A DNA stretch of 33,839 nucleotides from an alpha proteobacterium MED-G10. GTDB lineage: Bacteria; Pseudomonadota; Alphaproteobacteria; Methylaequorales; Methylaequoraceae. Positions 27,010 through 33,839 of the stretch are shown here, in pieces. Within the stretch, counting starts at the first letter, position 1; every line of letters begins with the position of its first letter. Made by a program: the position numbers and the translations under genes. The DNA is taken from assembly GCA_002457065.1 (NCBI GenBank), contig NTKR01000009.1:1-33839 (forward strand), given 5' to 3'. The notes below the pieces were generated by a model. The model was given only the letters and a program-made list of their open reading frames with translations, did no database searches and was not told the DNA's origin.

Positions 27010-28413
27010 TTATTTTGTTCCACCAACCGTAAGCTTTTTTATCTTTAAACTCGGTTGACCAACTCCTACAGGAACCATTTGTCCTTCTTTGCCACAGGTT
27101 CCAATTCCATTATCTAGTTTTAAATTATTTCCAACCATAGTAACCTCTTTAAGAATCTCTGGACCATTGCCAATTAAAGTAGCTCCTTTTAGAGGTTTTC
27201 CAATCTTTCCATTAGTAATTTCATAGGCCTCAGATGCACTAAAAACAAATTTTCCTGATGTTATGTCGACTTGACCACCACTGAATTGAGTTGCGTAGAT
27301 TCCTTTCTTAGTAGACTTAATTAATTCATCGTGATCATATTTACCCGATAACATATAAGTGTTAGTCATTCTTGGCATTGGGATATGAGAATAACTTTGA
27401 CGCCTTCCGTTCCCAGTTGAATCCTTGTTCATTAGTCTGGCGTTAAGTCTGTCTTGCATAAAGCCCTTTAAAATTCCATTCTCTATAAGTGTAGTATTTT
27501 GTGATGGGGTCCCTTCATCATCAATTGTTAGTGAACCCCTTCTCTCAGGAATTGTTCCATCATCGACTATAGTAACTTGATCAGAAGCGACTCTTTTTCC
27601 AACAAGATCGTAGAAAGCTGAGGTTTGTTTTCTGTTAAAATCACCTTCAAGCCCATGTCCAATGGCTTCGTGTAAAAGAATGCCTGGCCAACCAGGACCT
27701 AGGACAACTGTCTGTTCTCCAGCAGGTGTTTCTTTTGCTTTTAATTTAACTTTTGCTTGTTGAAAAGCACTGTCGATTGCACATTTCCAGTTTTTTTTAG
27801 AGAAGAGTTTGTCATACATATGCCTCCCTCCAAAACCATAAGATCCGGTTTCTACTCTCCCATTTTTTTCAATCGATATACTTACATTCATTCTTACTAG
27901 TGGCCTTGAATCATAAAATGTATTACCACCCAATTTTACTATCTCAACATTTTGGAAATTTCCATTTATACCTACACTTACTTGTTTGACTGATGAGTCT
28001 AATTTTCTTGCGTAAGAGTTTATTTTTTCTAAAAGATCAATCTTCTGTTTCAAAGATCTCTGGTTTAATGGGTTGGTATTGTCATACAAATTTTTGTTTG
28101 TTTTGATAATTTTTTTATTTAATTTTTCAGTGTTGATAGACCTATTTGTTTTAATGAGTTTTATACCCTTTTTAAGAGTATCCTCATTCACTTCAGAATT
28201 ATGGTAAAACTTAATTTCATCATTTTTAACTGTTCTTATTCCAAAACCTTTATCATTATCAAATGTTGAACTTTTAATTTTATTATCATCTAAAAGAATA
28301 TTTTCAGTAAAAACTTCTTCAACGAAAAGTTCGCCATCATCATAAGGTGACAATAATTTGTCAATTTCCTTAGAAATTATTTTTTTGTCCCAATTTGTAT
28401 CTATAAGTTTCAT
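27010..28413 (-). CDS. tldD: TldD subunit of the TldD-TldE metalloprotease
   Basis: 467-aa zinc-bearing subunit of the heterodimer with PmbA/TldE. The metal motif HEAIGHGLEGD (HExxxH) follows VVLGPGWPGILL. N-terminal DNDKGFGIRTV and central GGRHMYDKLF, SHIPMPRMTNTYML and TSGKFVFSASEAYEITNGKIG motifs are typical, and the protein ends KIKKLTVGGT. In E. coli the pair trims microcin B17 and CcdA-like peptides; no precursor peptide gene is evident here, so the substrate is unknown. Single-gene minus-strand unit; its stop lies one base from the convergent chorismate mutase stop and it diverges from coxB across 199 bp. Confidence 0.96.
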   Translation of the reverse strand: MKLIDTNWDKKIISKEIDKLLSPYDDGELFVEEVFTENILLDDNKIKSSTFDNDKGFGIRTVKNDEIKFYHNSEVNEDTLKKGIKLIKTNRSINTEKLNKKIIKTNKNLYDNTNPLNQRSLKQKIDLLEKINSYARKLDSSVKQVSVGINGNFQNVEIVKLGGNTFYDSRPLVRMNVSISIEKNGRVETGSYGFGGRHMYDKLFSKKNWKCAIDSAFQQAKVKLKAKETPAGEQTVVLGPGWPGILLHEAIGHGLEGDFNRKQTSAFYDLVGKRVASDQVTIVDDGTIPERRGSLTIDDEGTPSQNTTLIENGILKGFMQDRLNARLMNKDSTGNGRRQSYSHIPMPRMTNTYMLSGKYDHDELIKSTKKGIYATQFSGGQVDITSGKFVFSASEAYEITNGKIGKPLKGATLIGNGPEILKEVTMVGNNLKLDNGIGTCGKEGQMVPVGVGQPSLKIKKLTVGGTK

Positions 28414-28612: not shown

Positions 28613-29428
28613 ATGACGATATTTTATAAAACAATATTTGCTATTGCATTAACATTTAACACAGACCTGCTTGCAAAAGGCCAGCCAACCGAATGGCAAA
28701 TGGGTTTTCAAGAGGCCGCATCCCCATTGATGGCAGAGCTATCCGGATTACATGATTTCGTATTTTGGATTATTACTTTCATCACAGTTTTCGTTTTTGT
28801 GTTATTAGCGTATGTCTGTTATAAATTTAGTGCCAAAAGGAACAAAACCCCATCACAAACAACTCACAATTCTTTGTTAGAAGTTGCTTGGACGGTAATT
28901 CCAGTTTTAATACTAGTGGTTATAGCAATACCATCCTTTAAACTTCTTTATAAACAAAATGATTTTAGCAACATCGATATGACAATAAAAGCAACTGGAT
29001 ATACTTGGTATTGGGGATATGAATATCCCGACCATGATAGTATAGAATTTGATGCCATTATGCTCACTGAGGATGAGCTTGAAGAGGGTCAGCCAAGACT
29101 TTTAACTACTGACAATATGCTTGTCGTTCCTGTAAAGAAGAATATTAAAATGCAAATAACAAGTGATCCTGCAGGGGTCATACATTCCTGGGCAGTGCCT
29201 TCACTAGGTGTTAAAATGGACGCGATACCCGGAAGATTAAACGAAACTTATTTTAACATAAATGAGCCTGGCTTATATTATGGTCAATGCTCAGAGCTAT
29301 GTGGACCAGGACACGGGTTCATGCCAATCTCTATCAAAGCAGTTACTGAAGAAGAGTTTATTGTTTGGTTAGAAGAAGCTAAAGAGGAGTTTGCTTCTAA
29401 TCCCGACGAACAGATAGTTTTAAAGTAG
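28613..29428 (+). CDS. coxB: Cytochrome c oxidase subunit II
   Basis: Subunit II of the aa3-type terminal oxidase; receives electrons from cytochrome c through its CuA centre on the periplasmic side. 271 aa: N-terminal signal sequence (about 1-22), two membrane helices (about 49-71 and 91-113), then the cupredoxin domain. All CuA ligands are present: H191 in VIHSWAVPSLGVK, then C226, E228, C230, H234 and M237 in QCSELCGPGHGFM. The aromatic electron-entry patch is in ATGYTWYWGYEYPD. No C-terminal cytochrome c domain is fused, so it is the plain caa-less form. First gene of the cox operon, 12 nt before coxA. Confidence 0.98.
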   Translation: MTIFYKTIFAIALTFNTDLLAKGQPTEWQMGFQEAASPLMAELSGLHDFVFWIITFITVFVFVLLAYVCYKFSAKRNKTPSQTTHNSLLEVAWTVIPVLILVVIAIPSFKLLYKQNDFSNIDMTIKATGYTWYWGYEYPDHDSIEFDAIMLTEDELEEGQPRLLTTDNMLVVPVKKNIKMQITSDPAGVIHSWAVPSLGVKMDAIPGRLNETYFNINEPGLYYGQCSELCGPGHGFMPISIKAVTEEEFIVWLEEAKEEFASNPDEQIVLK

Positions 29429-29440
29429 AAAGGAAATTTT

Positions 29441-31003
29441 ATGTCTGATCATGCACCTTCATTTTTTAAGAGATATTTTTTCTCAACGAATCATAAAGAC
29501 ATAGGCGTACTATATCTTTATTTTGCAGTTATTGCCGGATTGATAGGTGGAATATTTTCCCTTTTGATTAGAATGGAGCTAGCCGAGCCTGGTATGCAAA
29601 TCCTTGGTGATGATTATCAGCAGTATAATGTATGGATAACCTCACATGGTCTTTTAATGATCTTTTTTATGATTATGCCAGCTATGGTTGGAGGTTTTGG
29701 TAACTATTTTGTTCCTCTATTAATTGGTGCTCCAGATATGGCCTTTCCGAGAATGAATAATTTAAGTTTTTGGCTGCTGGTACCTTCAATCATTTTACTT
29801 GTAGGGTCAGGGTTCGTAGATGGTGGAGCAGGACCAGGATGGACTCTTTACGCGCCTTTATCCACTTCGGGTCATGGCGGTCCGGCTGTTGATATGGTCA
29901 TTCTGTCTATGCATTTAGCTGGTGCATCTTCCATATTAGGTGCCATAAATTTCATTACCACTATCTTCAATATGAGAGCTCCAGGGATGACTCTTCATAA
30001 AATGCCTCTATTTGTTTGGTCAATTCTGATTACTGCATTCTTATTGCTCTTATCACTTCCAGTTTTGGCTGGCGCAATAACAATGATGCTGACTGATAGA
30101 AATTTTGGTACGGCGTTCTTTAACCCCGAAGCCGGTGGTGACCCTGTTTTATTTCAACATCTTTTCTGGTTCTTTGGTCATCCTGAGGTTTACATTTTAA
30201 TTTTACCTGGGTTTGGAATTGTTAGTCATGTTGTTTCTACCTTCTCCAAAAAACCTATCTTTGGATACTTGGGAATGGCATATGCAATGGCAGCAATAGG
30301 TGTAGTGGGATTTGTTGTTTGGGCTCACCACATGTACACGACTGGGTTAGACGTTGATACGCGAGCCTATTTTTTAGCCGCAACTATGGTAATTGCAGTA
30401 CCAACAGGTATCAAGATTTTTAGCTGGATAGCTACAATGTGGGGAGGGTCCATAGAATTTAAAACCCCAATGCTTTTTGCCATAGCAATGATATTTCTAT
30501 TTACACTTGGTGGTGTTACTGGAGTCGTTTTGGCTAACACAGGAATAGATGTTGCTCTACACGACACTTACTATGTTGTCGCCCATTTCCACTATGTTAT
30601 GTCAATGGGCGCTTTATTTTCTATTTACTCTGGTTTTTATTATTGGTTCAGTAAAATGTCTGGAGTTGAGTACAGTGAAATTTTAGGTAAGATCCATTTT
30701 TGGTTAACTTTCATTGGGGTTAATATCACCTTCTTTCCTATGCATTTTTCTGGTTTAGCTGGTATGCCGAGAAGAATACCAGATTATCCAGACGCATTCG
30801 CAGGTTGGAATTACGTTTCAAGTATAGGAGCCTACATTTCAGTGTTTGCAGCATTTTTCTTCGTAGCTCTTGTCTTAGAAGCTTTTTTTAGAAAAAGAAA
30901 GGCTCAAAACAACCCTTGGGGTAAAGGTGCAACAACTTTTGAATGGAAATTAAGTTCACCTCCGCCTTTTCATTCATTTAATGACTTACCAAAAGTTAAG
31001 TAA
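29441..31003 (+). CDS. coxA: Cytochrome c oxidase subunit I
   Basis: Catalytic subunit of the aa3 oxidase, 520 aa with twelve membrane helices. Metal ligands are complete: H69 and H384 for heme a, H382 for heme a3, and H247, H296 and H297 for CuB. Y251 in FFGHPEVY is the residue that cross-links to H247, and E249 matches the D-channel glutamate of A1-type heme-copper oxidases. The [16 protein letters not shown] block is canonical. An AAGGA ribosome binding site precedes the ATG. Subunit I and II together show a proton-pumping oxidase of the mitochondrial type. Confidence 0.99.
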
Positions 31004-31021: not shown

Positions 31022-31927
31022 ATGGAGTCTAAATCAATCAGTGACCTAAACGGTTTAGTAAGCAATAGCTCAGTTGAGGACTATATTTCTCTTTTAAAAC
31101 CTAGGGTGATGGTGCTAGCCGTTTTTACATCATTATGTGGTCTGTTAATTGCACCAGTTAACCTTCACCCTTTTCTATTTATACTGTCAATCTTTTGTAT
31201 TTCATTGGGGGCTGGTGCCGCTGGTGCTATTAATATGTGGTTTGATAGAGACATAGATTGTTTAATGGAAAGAACAAAAAAAAGAGCTATACCTCAAGGT
31301 AAGATTGAAGCTGAGAATGCATTGGGTTTTGGAATCATCTTGTCTTTAATTTCAGTAATGATTTTAGGATTGTCAGTAAATTATTTAGCCGCTTTTTTAT
31401 TAGCGTTTTCAATATTTTTTTACATTATTGTATACACAATTTGGCTTAAACGACGAACTCCGCAAAATATTGTGATAGGGGGTGCGGCAGGTGCATTTCC
31501 ACCTGTTATAGGATGGGTTTGCGCAACTAGTGAACTTAGCTTATTTCCAGTAATACTTTTTTCAATTATTTTTATTTGGACTCCGCCACATTTTTGGGCG
31601 TTAGCACTCTATAAAGATATCGAATACTCAAAAGCTAAAGTTCCAATGTTGCCAGTAGTTTCAGGTCACAGAACAACAAAAATCCAGATTTTTTCTTACT
31701 CTGTAGCTCTTTTTTTTGTTTCTATGCTCCCTTACTTTTTTAATTACTCAGGAATGTTTTATTTATTATGCGCACTTTGTTTAGGAATAATTTTTCTTTA
31801 TTTTTCTTATAAAGTTTTGCGGTCTGAAGATAATAAAAATACTCATTTTGCGCCAACTCTATTTAAGTTTTCAATCCTGTATCTATATCTGATTTTTTCT
31901 TCATTAGTGATTGATAGTTTTATTTAG
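31022..31927 (+). CDS. ctaB: Heme O synthase (protoheme IX farnesyltransferase)
   Basis: Integral membrane prenyltransferase that adds a farnesyl group to heme B, giving heme O, the precursor of heme A for the oxidase encoded upstream. The UbiA-superfamily Asp motif is AINMWFDRDIDCLMERTKKR, with RAIPQG after it. YTIWLKRRTPQNIVIGG, AGAFPPVIGW and WTPPHFWALALY are characteristic of CtaB rather than UbiA. 301 aa and about nine membrane segments are normal. It lies 18 nt after coxA. CtaA, needed for the next step to heme A, is not in this window. Confidence 0.96.
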   Translation: MESKSISDLNGLVSNSSVEDYISLLKPRVMVLAVFTSLCGLLIAPVNLHPFLFILSIFCISLGAGAAGAINMWFDRDIDCLMERTKKRAIPQGKIEAENALGFGIILSLISVMILGLSVNYLAAFLLAFSIFFYIIVYTIWLKRRTPQNIVIGGAAGAFPPVIGWVCATSELSLFPVILFSIIFIWTPPHFWALALYKDIEYSKAKVPMLPVVSGHRTTKIQIFSYSVALFFVSMLPYFFNYSGMFYLLCALCLGIIFLYFSYKVLRSEDNKNTHFAPTLFKFSILYLYLIFSSLVIDSFI

Positions 31928-31928
31928 T

Positions 31929-32021
31929 ATGGATAATAGAAAGAAAAAGAATGTTGCACTTGGAATCTTTTTACTTACATTAGTAATGATTTTTTACTTT
32001 GTGACGATAATTAAATTTTAG
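31929..32021 (+). CDS. 30-aa membrane micropeptide in the cox operon (CoxF-like)
   Basis: A 30-codon gene between ctaB (1 nt upstream) and ctaG (7 nt downstream). The product begins MDNRKKKN, a very basic stretch, then a single hydrophobic helix (about 9-27), ending TIIKF. The layout matches short single-span proteins found at this spot in alphaproteobacterial cox operons, sometimes annotated CoxF, whose core resembles RRxxNxALGLVLxALVVLFYxVTIVKL; here the match is NVALGIFLL then FYFVTIIKF. This product lacks their longer N-terminal extension. Positive-inside topology puts the N-terminus in the cytoplasm. Assembly or stability of the oxidase is inferred from context only. Confidence 0.72.
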   Translation: MDNRKKKNVALGIFLLTLVMIFYFVTIIKF

Positions 32022-32028
32022 GTTTGAA

Positions 32029-32562
32029 ATGTATCAAATTAGAAAAATAAAAAGACAGGCTCTAATTTTAACCCTGTTTGTAGTTTTTATGATATCGATG
32101 AGTTATGCAGCAGTTCCATTGTACAAACTTTTTTGTCAGGTAACAGGTTATGGTGGAACTCCTATGATAGGTTCCAACAACTTTTATAGTGTCAGTGTTG
32201 GATCAATAGATGTAAGATTTGATTCATCTCTTGAGAAAAACGCACCTTTATACTTTGAACCAGTTTCAAAAACAATTAACGTTAAGATTGGTGAAAATAG
32301 TCTCGCTTTTTATAAAGCGAAAAATAAAACTAACAAAGAGATTACAACTATGTCAGTATTTAACGTAACCCCTCTTCAAGCTGGCAAATATTTTAACAAA
32401 ATTGAGTGCTTTTGTTTTGAAGAGCAAAAGCTATCACCAAACGAAGAGGTTGAAATGCCGGTTTCTTTTTTTATTGACCCTGAAATAAAAAATGATAAAT
32501 TTATTAATGAAATTAGCGAAATAACCTTATCCTATACTATGTTCATTAGAGAAGAAAAATAA
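32029..32562 (+). CDS. ctaG: Cytochrome c oxidase assembly protein CtaG/Cox11
   Basis: Copper chaperone that delivers Cu to the CuB site of subunit I on the periplasmic side. One N-terminal membrane helix (about 11-27) is followed by the family start AAVPLYKLFCQVTGYGGTP with C36, and the copper-binding CFCF motif (C127, C129) in KIECFCFEEQKLSPNEEVEMPV. FFIDPEI and the immunoglobulin-like beta domain follow. 177 aa is normal. It shares one base with coxC (TAATG), so the two are likely translationally coupled. Confidence 0.97.
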   Translation: MYQIRKIKRQALILTLFVVFMISMSYAAVPLYKLFCQVTGYGGTPMIGSNNFYSVSVGSIDVRFDSSLEKNAPLYFEPVSKTINVKIGENSLAFYKAKNKTNKEITTMSVFNVTPLQAGKYFNKIECFCFEEQKLSPNEEVEMPVSFFIDPEIKNDKFINEISEITLSYTMFIREEK

Positions 32563-33383
32563 TGAGTGAAAATCAGAAACATCCTTATCATCTTGTTGAT
32601 CCAAGTCCGTGGCCCTTAGTGACGGCAATGTCATTATTAGTTTTTGCATATGGATTTGTATCCTTAATGCACGACGAAAAAATTGTTGTTTTTTCTATCG
32701 GAGGTATTGCAGTTTTACTATCGAGCTTCTTTTGGTGGAGAGATGTTGTAAATGAATCAGAGGGGGGAAAGTTTCATAATAATGTAGTTCAGATAGGTCT
32801 TAAATATGGTATGATCCTATTTATTGCCTCTGAAGTAATGTTTTTTGCTGCTTGGTTTTGGGCATTTTTTGACGTAGCATTTTATCCAGGTAACGAAAGT
32901 GCAGAACTAATTGGAAGACAAGAATCTATTGGGGGAGTTTTTCCACCCGAAGATATTGAGTTAATCCCTCCATTTGGGATACCACTGTTAAATACTTTTA
33001 TACTCCTAGCTTCTGGCGGAACAGTGACATGGGCGCATCACGCTCTTAGGGTCGGTGATAGAAAAAACTTTTTAGTATTTCTTTTTTTAACCATCCTTCT
33101 TGGTATTATTTTTACAGGCTTCCAAGCTTATGAGTACCAACATGCTACATTTTCAATAGATGAGGGCATATATCCGTCGACCTTTTATATGGCAACTGGC
33201 TTTCATGGTGCACATGTTATTATAGGAACAATATTCTTAATAGTGTGTTTCTTTAGAGGCTTAACTGGACATTTTAAACCAGAAAAACATCTTGGTTTTG
33301 AATTTGCTGCTTGGTATTGGCATTTCGTTGATGTTGTGTGGCTCTTCTTGTTTACGTTCGTATACTGGTGGGCTTCTGTTTAG
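32562..33383 (+). CDS. coxC: Cytochrome c oxidase subunit III
   Basis: Third core subunit of the aa3 oxidase, 273 aa with seven membrane helices; it binds phospholipid and stabilises the active site against turnover inactivation. Signatures: HPYHLVDPSPWPLV at the N-terminus, FFWWRDVVNES, GMILFIASEVMFFAAWFWAF, TGFHGAHVIIGTIFL and EFAAWYWHFVDVVWLFLF near the C-terminus. The ATG overlaps the ctaG stop. The SURF1 gene begins 6 nt downstream. Confidence 0.98.
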   Translation: MSENQKHPYHLVDPSPWPLVTAMSLLVFAYGFVSLMHDEKIVVFSIGGIAVLLSSFFWWRDVVNESEGGKFHNNVVQIGLKYGMILFIASEVMFFAAWFWAFFDVAFYPGNESAELIGRQESIGGVFPPEDIELIPPFGIPLLNTFILLASGGTVTWAHHALRVGDRKNFLVFLFLTILLGIIFTGFQAYEYQHATFSIDEGIYPSTFYMATGFHGAHVIIGTIFLIVCFFRGLTGHFKPEKHLGFEFAAWYWHFVDVVWLFLFTFVYWWASV

Positions 33384-33389
33384 CCTCTA

Positions 33390-33839
33390 ATGACTTTTAA
33401 GTTCAATAACCAAACCTACACATTTAAACCCAGGTTGTTCCCGTTATTTTCCTTTTTAGTGGCACTGACCATCTTGTTAGGACTGTCATATTGGCAAGTA
33501 AAAAGATTGATTTGGAAAACAGAGTTAATTGAACAAAGAGTTACAAGCTTCGAATCTGAACCAATTAGTCTTCTTGACTTAAATAATCCTGAGAACGAAG
33601 AGTTTAAAAGAATAAAAGTTAGGGGGAAGTTGTTAAATGAATTTGAATTCTTTATGCCAGCCCTGAGTAAAAGGGGAAATAATGGTTTTCATATATTAGT
33701 ACCACTAGAGGTAAACTCGAAACTGACTTTAATTTATGACACTGGTTGGGTTCCACTTCAGAAGAAAGAAAGAGAAAAAAGATTAGACAATATAAATGAA
33801 AACGAGCAAGATTTAGTCGCTGTAATTAGATTGCCAGGA
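33390..33839 (+). CDS. SURF1/Shy1-family oxidase assembly protein (partial, truncated by window end)
   Basis: The first 150 codons are open to the window edge. Membrane-anchored assembly factor for heme A insertion into cytochrome oxidase subunit I. Seen here: N-terminal membrane helix (about 16-34), then LSYWQVKRLIWKTELIEQR, matching the family's GxWQlxRxxWKxxLI, then FKRIKVRGKL and YDTGWVPLQKKEREKR, matching the GWVP box. The second membrane helix expected near the C-terminus is outside the window. The start is the ATG at 33390, just after coxC. Placement at the end of a cox operon is typical for alphaproteobacteria. Confidence 0.92.
   Translation, partial: MTFKFNNQTYTFKPRLFPLFSFLVALTILLGLSYWQVKRLIWKTELIEQRVTSFESEPISLLDLNNPENEEFKRIKVRGKLLNEFEFFMPALSKRGNNGFHILVPLEVNSKLTLIYDTGWVPLQKKEREKRLDNINENEQDLVAVIRLPG

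Follow-up and report, generated by a model that had tools for sequence, protein, structure and literature searches.

A 30-codon gene between ctaB and ctaG is a minimal member of a general alphaproteobacterial oxidase-assembly family with a likely Coa3-type function

A gene of 30 codons lies between ctaB and ctaG on the forward strand (31929 to 32021) of the window, which is the whole stretch of 33,839 nt analysed here. It is close to certain that this is a real gene; it is under purifying selection and belongs, as a minimal member, to an oxidase-assembly family that is general in Alphaproteobacteria but has no name. Its product probably has a Coa3-like assembly role, as a transient one-helix chaperone for subunit I which would act between the insertion of haem and that of CuB. 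The link to Coa3 is absent from the sequence-only reading made previously of this DNA.

The source genome has 994 kb and is 78% complete, and the cox locus is on one of its contigs. This locus shows the following genes:

28613..29428, + strand: coxB, cytochrome oxidase subunit II (open reading frame, named from its translation read by eye)
29441..31003, + strand: coxA, cytochrome oxidase subunit I, the proposed client (open reading frame, named from its translation read by eye)
31022..31927, + strand: ctaB, haem O synthase (COX10; UbiA family match)
31929..32021, + strand: gene encoding a 30-aa single-helix membrane peptide of CoxF type (open reading frame, found in 29/29 family loci)
32029..32562, + strand: ctaG, CuB copper chaperone (COX11; PF04442, E 1.6e-53; NF003465 above its cut-off)
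32562..33383, + strand: coxC, cytochrome oxidase subunit III (PF00510, E 1.1e-94)
33390..33839, + strand: surf1, cut by the contig end (PF02104, E 5e-19)

The stop codon of ctaB ends at 31927, the peptide gene begins with an ATG at 31929 and its TAG ends at 32021, and the ATG of ctaG is at 32029. These coordinates confirm the sequence-only reading, in which a 30-codon frame fills the 101-nt interval between ctaB and ctaG and is 1 nt from the former and 7 nt from the latter. The product is MDNRKKKNVALGIFLLTLVMIFYFVTIIKF, of 30 aa. Translation from a TTG in frame at 31911 would extend the product to 36 aa, and the ATG at 31929 agrees with the starts in relatives. In many relatives, close ones included, the start of the peptide gene overlaps the ctaB stop (TAATG), which is consistent with translational coupling. 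A TldD-like gene (named by reading; 27010-28413) is the divergent neighbour of coxB (28613), and tldD is likewise divergent beside coxB in Paracoccus ferrooxidans pFER4 (L225).

A ctaG search in 60 relatives gave 49 matches, and the ctaB-ctaG intervals were then read. The search included 31 relatives of the same family: three show no ctaG match and one shows ctaG as a fragment at a contig end, so these four gave no interval. An intact frame occupies this position in 29/29 of the family loci inspected, which belong to 28 genomes (one with two copies), and the peptides range from 28 to 31 aa. None of the 29 intervals contains the stops or frameshifts that the sequence-only reading had proposed to look for, and the excess of synonymous change that it expected is present: pN/pS is 0.27 over the 100 less saturated pairs (pS < 0.6) of 406 in total, and dN/dS lies between 0 and 0.39 in every one of the 60 pairs listed. 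Comparison with a relative of the same genus shows saturation at synonymous sites (14 of 15.3), with nonsynonymous changes at 9 of 53.7. The assembly with two ctaB-peptide-ctaG loci (G019: L060 on C6 and L007 on C38) has a reported contamination of 4% and, from both facts, possibly contains two organisms. In another assembly, the ctaG match (L011, G024:C2:42253-42762) contains one internal TAA.

Outside the family, a class-wide search for ctaB matched 237 of 289 genomes, and 80 regions downstream of ctaB were fetched from the better-scoring listed matches of these 237. A homologous peptide is encoded directly behind ctaB in 79 of the 80 class loci examined, the exception being L166, and from these loci the family is nearly universal in Alphaproteobacteria. 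This set of 79 peptides was picked by ctaB position and with a profile built from a first set of 24, which includes two (L037 and L040) selected because they match Coa3. A class sample anchored on ctaG contains the peptide in 17/20 loci; L030, L050 and L055 lack it, and the peptide of L051, from the same sample, was seen but is omitted from the alignment.

The core alignment contains 104 rows, with L206 counted twice. A K or R just before a conserved Asn is found in 101/104 rows and the Asn itself in 97/104. Counting from this Asn, Leu is at +7 in 96/103 rows, Y, F or W at +15 in 101/103, T or S at +18 in 88/103 and K or R at +21 in 94/102. The window peptide aligns with this core free of gaps and has K, N, L, Y, T and K at these positions. 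Three of its codons are considered below:

31950..31952, + strand: Asn8 codon, the conserved Asn (N in 97/104 aligned rows of the wider family)
31995..31997, + strand: Tyr23 codon, Asn+15 (aromatic in 101/103 rows; aligned to human COA3 Tyr72)
32004..32006, + strand: Thr26 codon, Asn+18 (Thr or Ser in 88/103 rows; aligned to human COA3 Thr75)

The basic-helix-TIIK pattern anticipated in the sequence-only reading is conserved in relatives in the form basic-helix-T-x-x-K. The resemblance noticed there to a CoxF-like peptide of the same locus also stands, since the class peptides align with a gap-free core. The window peptide has the placement of the CoxF type, directly behind ctaB and before ctaG, and shares with its peers the basic N-terminus and the single helix. 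However, the peers mostly have 33-66 aa (up to 85 aa) and carry an N-terminal arm and, in many cases, a tail, whereas the window lineage has around 30 aa. The arm and the C-terminal tail are common but not universal in the family and are absent from the window peptide; this agrees with the loss outside the helix described previously, as the family peptides of 28-31 aa lack both parts, which most peers have. The name CoxF is taken from the sequence-only reading and is presumably that of the alphaproteobacterial ctaB-x-ctaG protein. In Bradyrhizobium, CoxG is a CtaG-like protein, the one part of the naming supported in the excerpts of PMC12617631.

Members from Sinorhizobium meliloti pSymB, Paracoccus ferrooxidans pFER4 and Sphingomonas parapaucimobilis are larger, are annotated only as 'hypothetical protein' and, when read by eye, have the basic-helix pattern too. 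The CoxF-type family has no Pfam model of its own and no NCBIfam model whose cut-off its members pass, and the window peptide alone matches neither Pfam nor NCBIfam. In the Jiella pelagia plasmid (L222), ctaG is clustered with genes for SCO, DUF411 and DsbA; the annotation shows neither a ctaB nearby nor a small gene directly before ctaG.

Beta- and gammaproteobacteria show comparable small genes. NCBIfam NF038351 (cyt_ox_assem_30), a model of 30 positions, is named 'cytochrome oxidase small assembly protein', and its cut-off is passed by Polynucleobacter (43.8 bits) and by a Burkholderiaceae genome (40 bits). Its proteins, as the window peptide, have a small helix and are encoded right before ctaG (7 nt upstream in the window), but the upstream gene in these beta and gamma loci, where readable, encodes subunit I and is not ctaB. 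Four of the 24 alphaproteobacterial peptides match NF038351 weakly (best E 0.022), all alphaproteobacterial peptides seen stay below its cut-off of 27.5 bits, and the window peptide has no match. In 150 genomes of the phylum, the highest-ranking match below the cut-off is the peptide encoded behind ctaB in G272. A small one-helix frame directly precedes ctaG in several loci of beta- and gammaproteobacteria (L107, L109, L127-L130, L132, L133, L136 and L138-L140). The gamma versions tested pass the cut-off of no NCBIfam model, and the SAR86 loci L108, L112 and L116 show no small frame in the region read before ctaG.

The commonest match of the 79 locus-anchored peptides among 24,736 Pfam families is PF09813 (Coa3_cc), which is matched by 38/79 (best E 0.0012); the next-commonest family is matched by 14/79. 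In the first set it is matched by 12/24, a number that includes the choice of two of the 24 for matching Coa3. The best family scores against PF09813 are 20.4, 19.5 and 18.7 bits, the first two from these pre-picked loci, and yeast Coa3 (sequence from recall) scores 21.3 bits. In the scored scans, all family members stay below the cut-off of 27 bits, which counts against the Coa3 reading; yeast Coa3 itself is also below it. In a genome-wide scan, none of 289 class genomes contains a PF09813 match over the cut-off. This class-wide scan is noisy alone: its best match is 7.4e-5, and most of its top ten are off the cox locus, three of ten being at ctaB. Among the 150 weak matches listed, 83 are in genomes without a listed ctaB position and 67 in genomes where it is known; 33 of these 67 lie within 450 nt behind ctaB. 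Of the 33, 23 are in frames of less than 120 aa, and the other ten probably include CtaG itself in some cases.

Three controls were scanned against PF09813. Shuffles which keep the basic and helical regions match in 0/48, and N-terminal basic helices of CcmE of the same class match in 0/18 (24 loci gave 21 segments, three without a helix were dropped and 18 were scanned). N-terminal helices of CtaG, for which the segment was obtained from 20 of 25 loci, match in 4/20, which indicates that part of the Coa3 signal is a basic-helix pattern common to the locus.

In the opposite direction, the profile of the 79 peptides scores human COA3 with 14.4 bits (E 0.02 per 20,000 proteins), COX16 with 0.3, COX7B with -0.8, COX14 with -0.9 and COX6C with -4.0 bits. 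It misses yeast Coa3 (-1.3 bits), which counts against the Coa3 reading. With a composition-corrected matrix, the fraction of shuffles reaching the best window, uncorrected for the choice of window, is 0.00005 for human COA3 and 0.0026 for yeast Coa3, and ranges from 0.018 to 0.075 for the other four proteins (COX6C, 0.056). The register of the human and yeast best windows puts the Coa3 Asn on the family Asn. The same register is found by hhalign between the family and human COA3, with a probability of 63%. In local mode, hhalign gives 57% for human and yeast together and 77% for human alone; in global mode, these are 5.6% and 26%, respectively. No alignment is obtained with yeast Coa3 alone. 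A search for a solved Coa3 structure in the PDB copy gave none.

The window peptide shares Asn, Tyr (+15) and Thr (+18) in one register with human COA3 and yeast Coa3. With Ala in place of these residues, the PF09813 score of human COA3 falls by 5.6, 9.5 and 4.7 bits, respectively, which indicates that they are conserved in Coa3. Coa3 (MITRAC12, CCDC56; PF09813) and the window peptide thus share one helix and a basic segment ending in Asn, followed by Tyr at +15 and Thr at +18. In contrast, Coa3 also contains long soluble parts, another conserved Tyr at +17 and a C-terminal segment. The Tyr at +17 is among the strongest Coa3 columns (Ala there costs human COA3 10.0 bits) and is absent from all 103 family rows, and the window peptide ends four residues after Thr and has no such C-terminal segment. 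Because it stays below the PF09813 cut-off and lacks this second Tyr and segment, it is not filed as Coa3.

The family column of Tyr (+15) holds Y72 of human COA3. As described in excerpts of PMC11011759, human cytochrome oxidase requires Coa3, which carries mutations in disease, and fibroblasts of a patient with COA3 Y72C and a truncating allele lose COX1, COX14 and nearly all assembled oxidase. Excerpts of PMC9232578 describe that, in human mitochondria, new COX1 is held by COA3 and COX14, and that COX11 complexes with COX10, COX15 and COA3 precede copper loading. Coa3 is thus a partner of complexes of COX10 and COX11, and the window gene is flanked by the genes of these two proteins. A one-helix chaperone for subunit I is proposed from these human complexes and from the gene order ctaB-coxF-ctaG, which reads as COX10-x-COX11. 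The product would be one membrane helix with its N-terminus inside and a lysine-rich cytoplasmic end. The helix would pack against newly inserted, cofactor-free subunit I, keeping it stable and accessible, and subunit I would be held in a module with CtaB (COX10) and CtaG (COX11). Once haem a and CuB are inserted, the peptide would leave and would not be part of the finished enzyme. This topology is predicted from the positive-inside rule, and membrane insertion, the subunit I client and release are predictions likewise. The N-terminus of yeast Coa3p is reported to be outside in the text available from PMC7582755, opposite to the predicted cytoplasmic N-terminus, which counts against the Coa3 reading.

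An open frame arising by chance is rejected because of its conservation in 29/29 family loci and at 79/80 class ctaB loci. It is likewise extremely improbable that the frame encodes no protein and is a by-product of spacing or of translational coupling from ctaB to ctaG: the frame is very short and its start overlaps the ctaB stop in relatives, but amino acids are conserved in all the family loci, pN/pS is 0.27 and homologues are found at the class loci. It is unlikely that the peptide serves CtaG or CtaB as a partner helix, for example holding CtaG near subunit I, and is unrelated to Coa3. The genes are adjacent and often overlap, CtaG helices match Coa3_cc in 4/20, the family profile misses yeast Coa3 and all scores seen are below the curated cut-off, as would agree with a likeness due to convergence of short basic membrane helices. 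However, such helices in CcmE (0/18) and the shuffles (0/48) do not match, the Asn/Tyr/Thr register is common to Coa3, and hhalign does not align the family with the CtaG N-terminus (probability of 17% over five columns). An origin of the peptide from the N-terminal helix of CtaG is rejected from this last result.

A structural subunit of the finished aa3 oxidase, comparable to bacterial subunit IV or to mitochondrial COX6C/COX7B and permanently bound to the rim of subunit I, is quite unlikely. It would fit a single helix and a gene located among subunit genes, and COX6C and COX7B are each matched by two of the 79 peptides (best for COX6C, 6.2e-5); the COX6C match of 6.2e-5 is stronger than any Coa3 match among the 79 and counts against the Coa3 reading. 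However, the family profile matches no oxidase chain, nor any solved chain, in the PDB copy, whose entries presumably include alphaproteobacterial aa3 oxidases, and this speaks against a structural subunit. The profile scores of COX6C (-4.0 bits) and COX7B (-0.8 bits) also disagree with it. COX6C is rejected as the mitochondrial relative, since despite its two Pfam matches its profile score is negative and its best window does not stand out from the shuffles (0.056). Short hypothetical proteins in COX operons are read as COX4-like in excerpts of Degli Esposti 2014 (PMC4013037), which favours a subunit. Nevertheless, no COX4 family is among the Pfam matches of the 24 members or the 25 commonest families of the 79, and a subunit IV or COX4-like protein is rejected for this and for the PDB result. 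A Coa3-type function is likely and common descent with Coa3 has a better than even chance, and the CoxF-type peptide is possibly the bacterial counterpart of Coa3.

Excerpts of one review (PMC6696091) describe Cox14 and Coa3 as 'not present in bacteria', and those of PMC9232578 count only five assembly factors for alphaproteobacteria. For P. denitrificans, the available text of a 2022 review of bacterial oxidase assembly (PMC9145763) gives CtaB as A1BA40 and CtaG as A1BA38, lists nothing under the accession between both and contains neither Coa3 nor Cox14. One paper which names Coa3 and alphaproteobacteria gives COA3 as 'n.d.' in Andalucia, in its excerpted part. In the open literature searched, as distinct from subscription journals and preprints, no paper was found, in the text accessible, that links the ctaB-ctaG peptide to Coa3 or proposes a bacterial Coa3. 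The open literature also gave no paper on CoxF with cytochrome c oxidase and CtaG or on 'oxidase small assembly protein', and no experiment on any CoxF-type member. The CoxF hits shown in excerpts of PMC7050145 are names such as CoxFA4.

On balance, we lean slightly towards the ctaB-ctaG peptides being bacterial forebears of Coa3, with the COX10-COA3-COX11 module as the protein image of an inherited endosymbiont gene order, ctaB-coxF-ctaG. If so, the 30-residue version would be the smallest natural Coa3-type factor, the helix with its Asn, Tyr and Thr would be the working core, and translational control would be a eukaryotic addition to this one-helix core. A small protein found at 79/80 ctaB loci would be an overlooked factor of general importance for oxidase assembly in bacteria and, if it is related to Coa3, the chaperoning of subunit I would originate in bacteria and be reducible to one helix.
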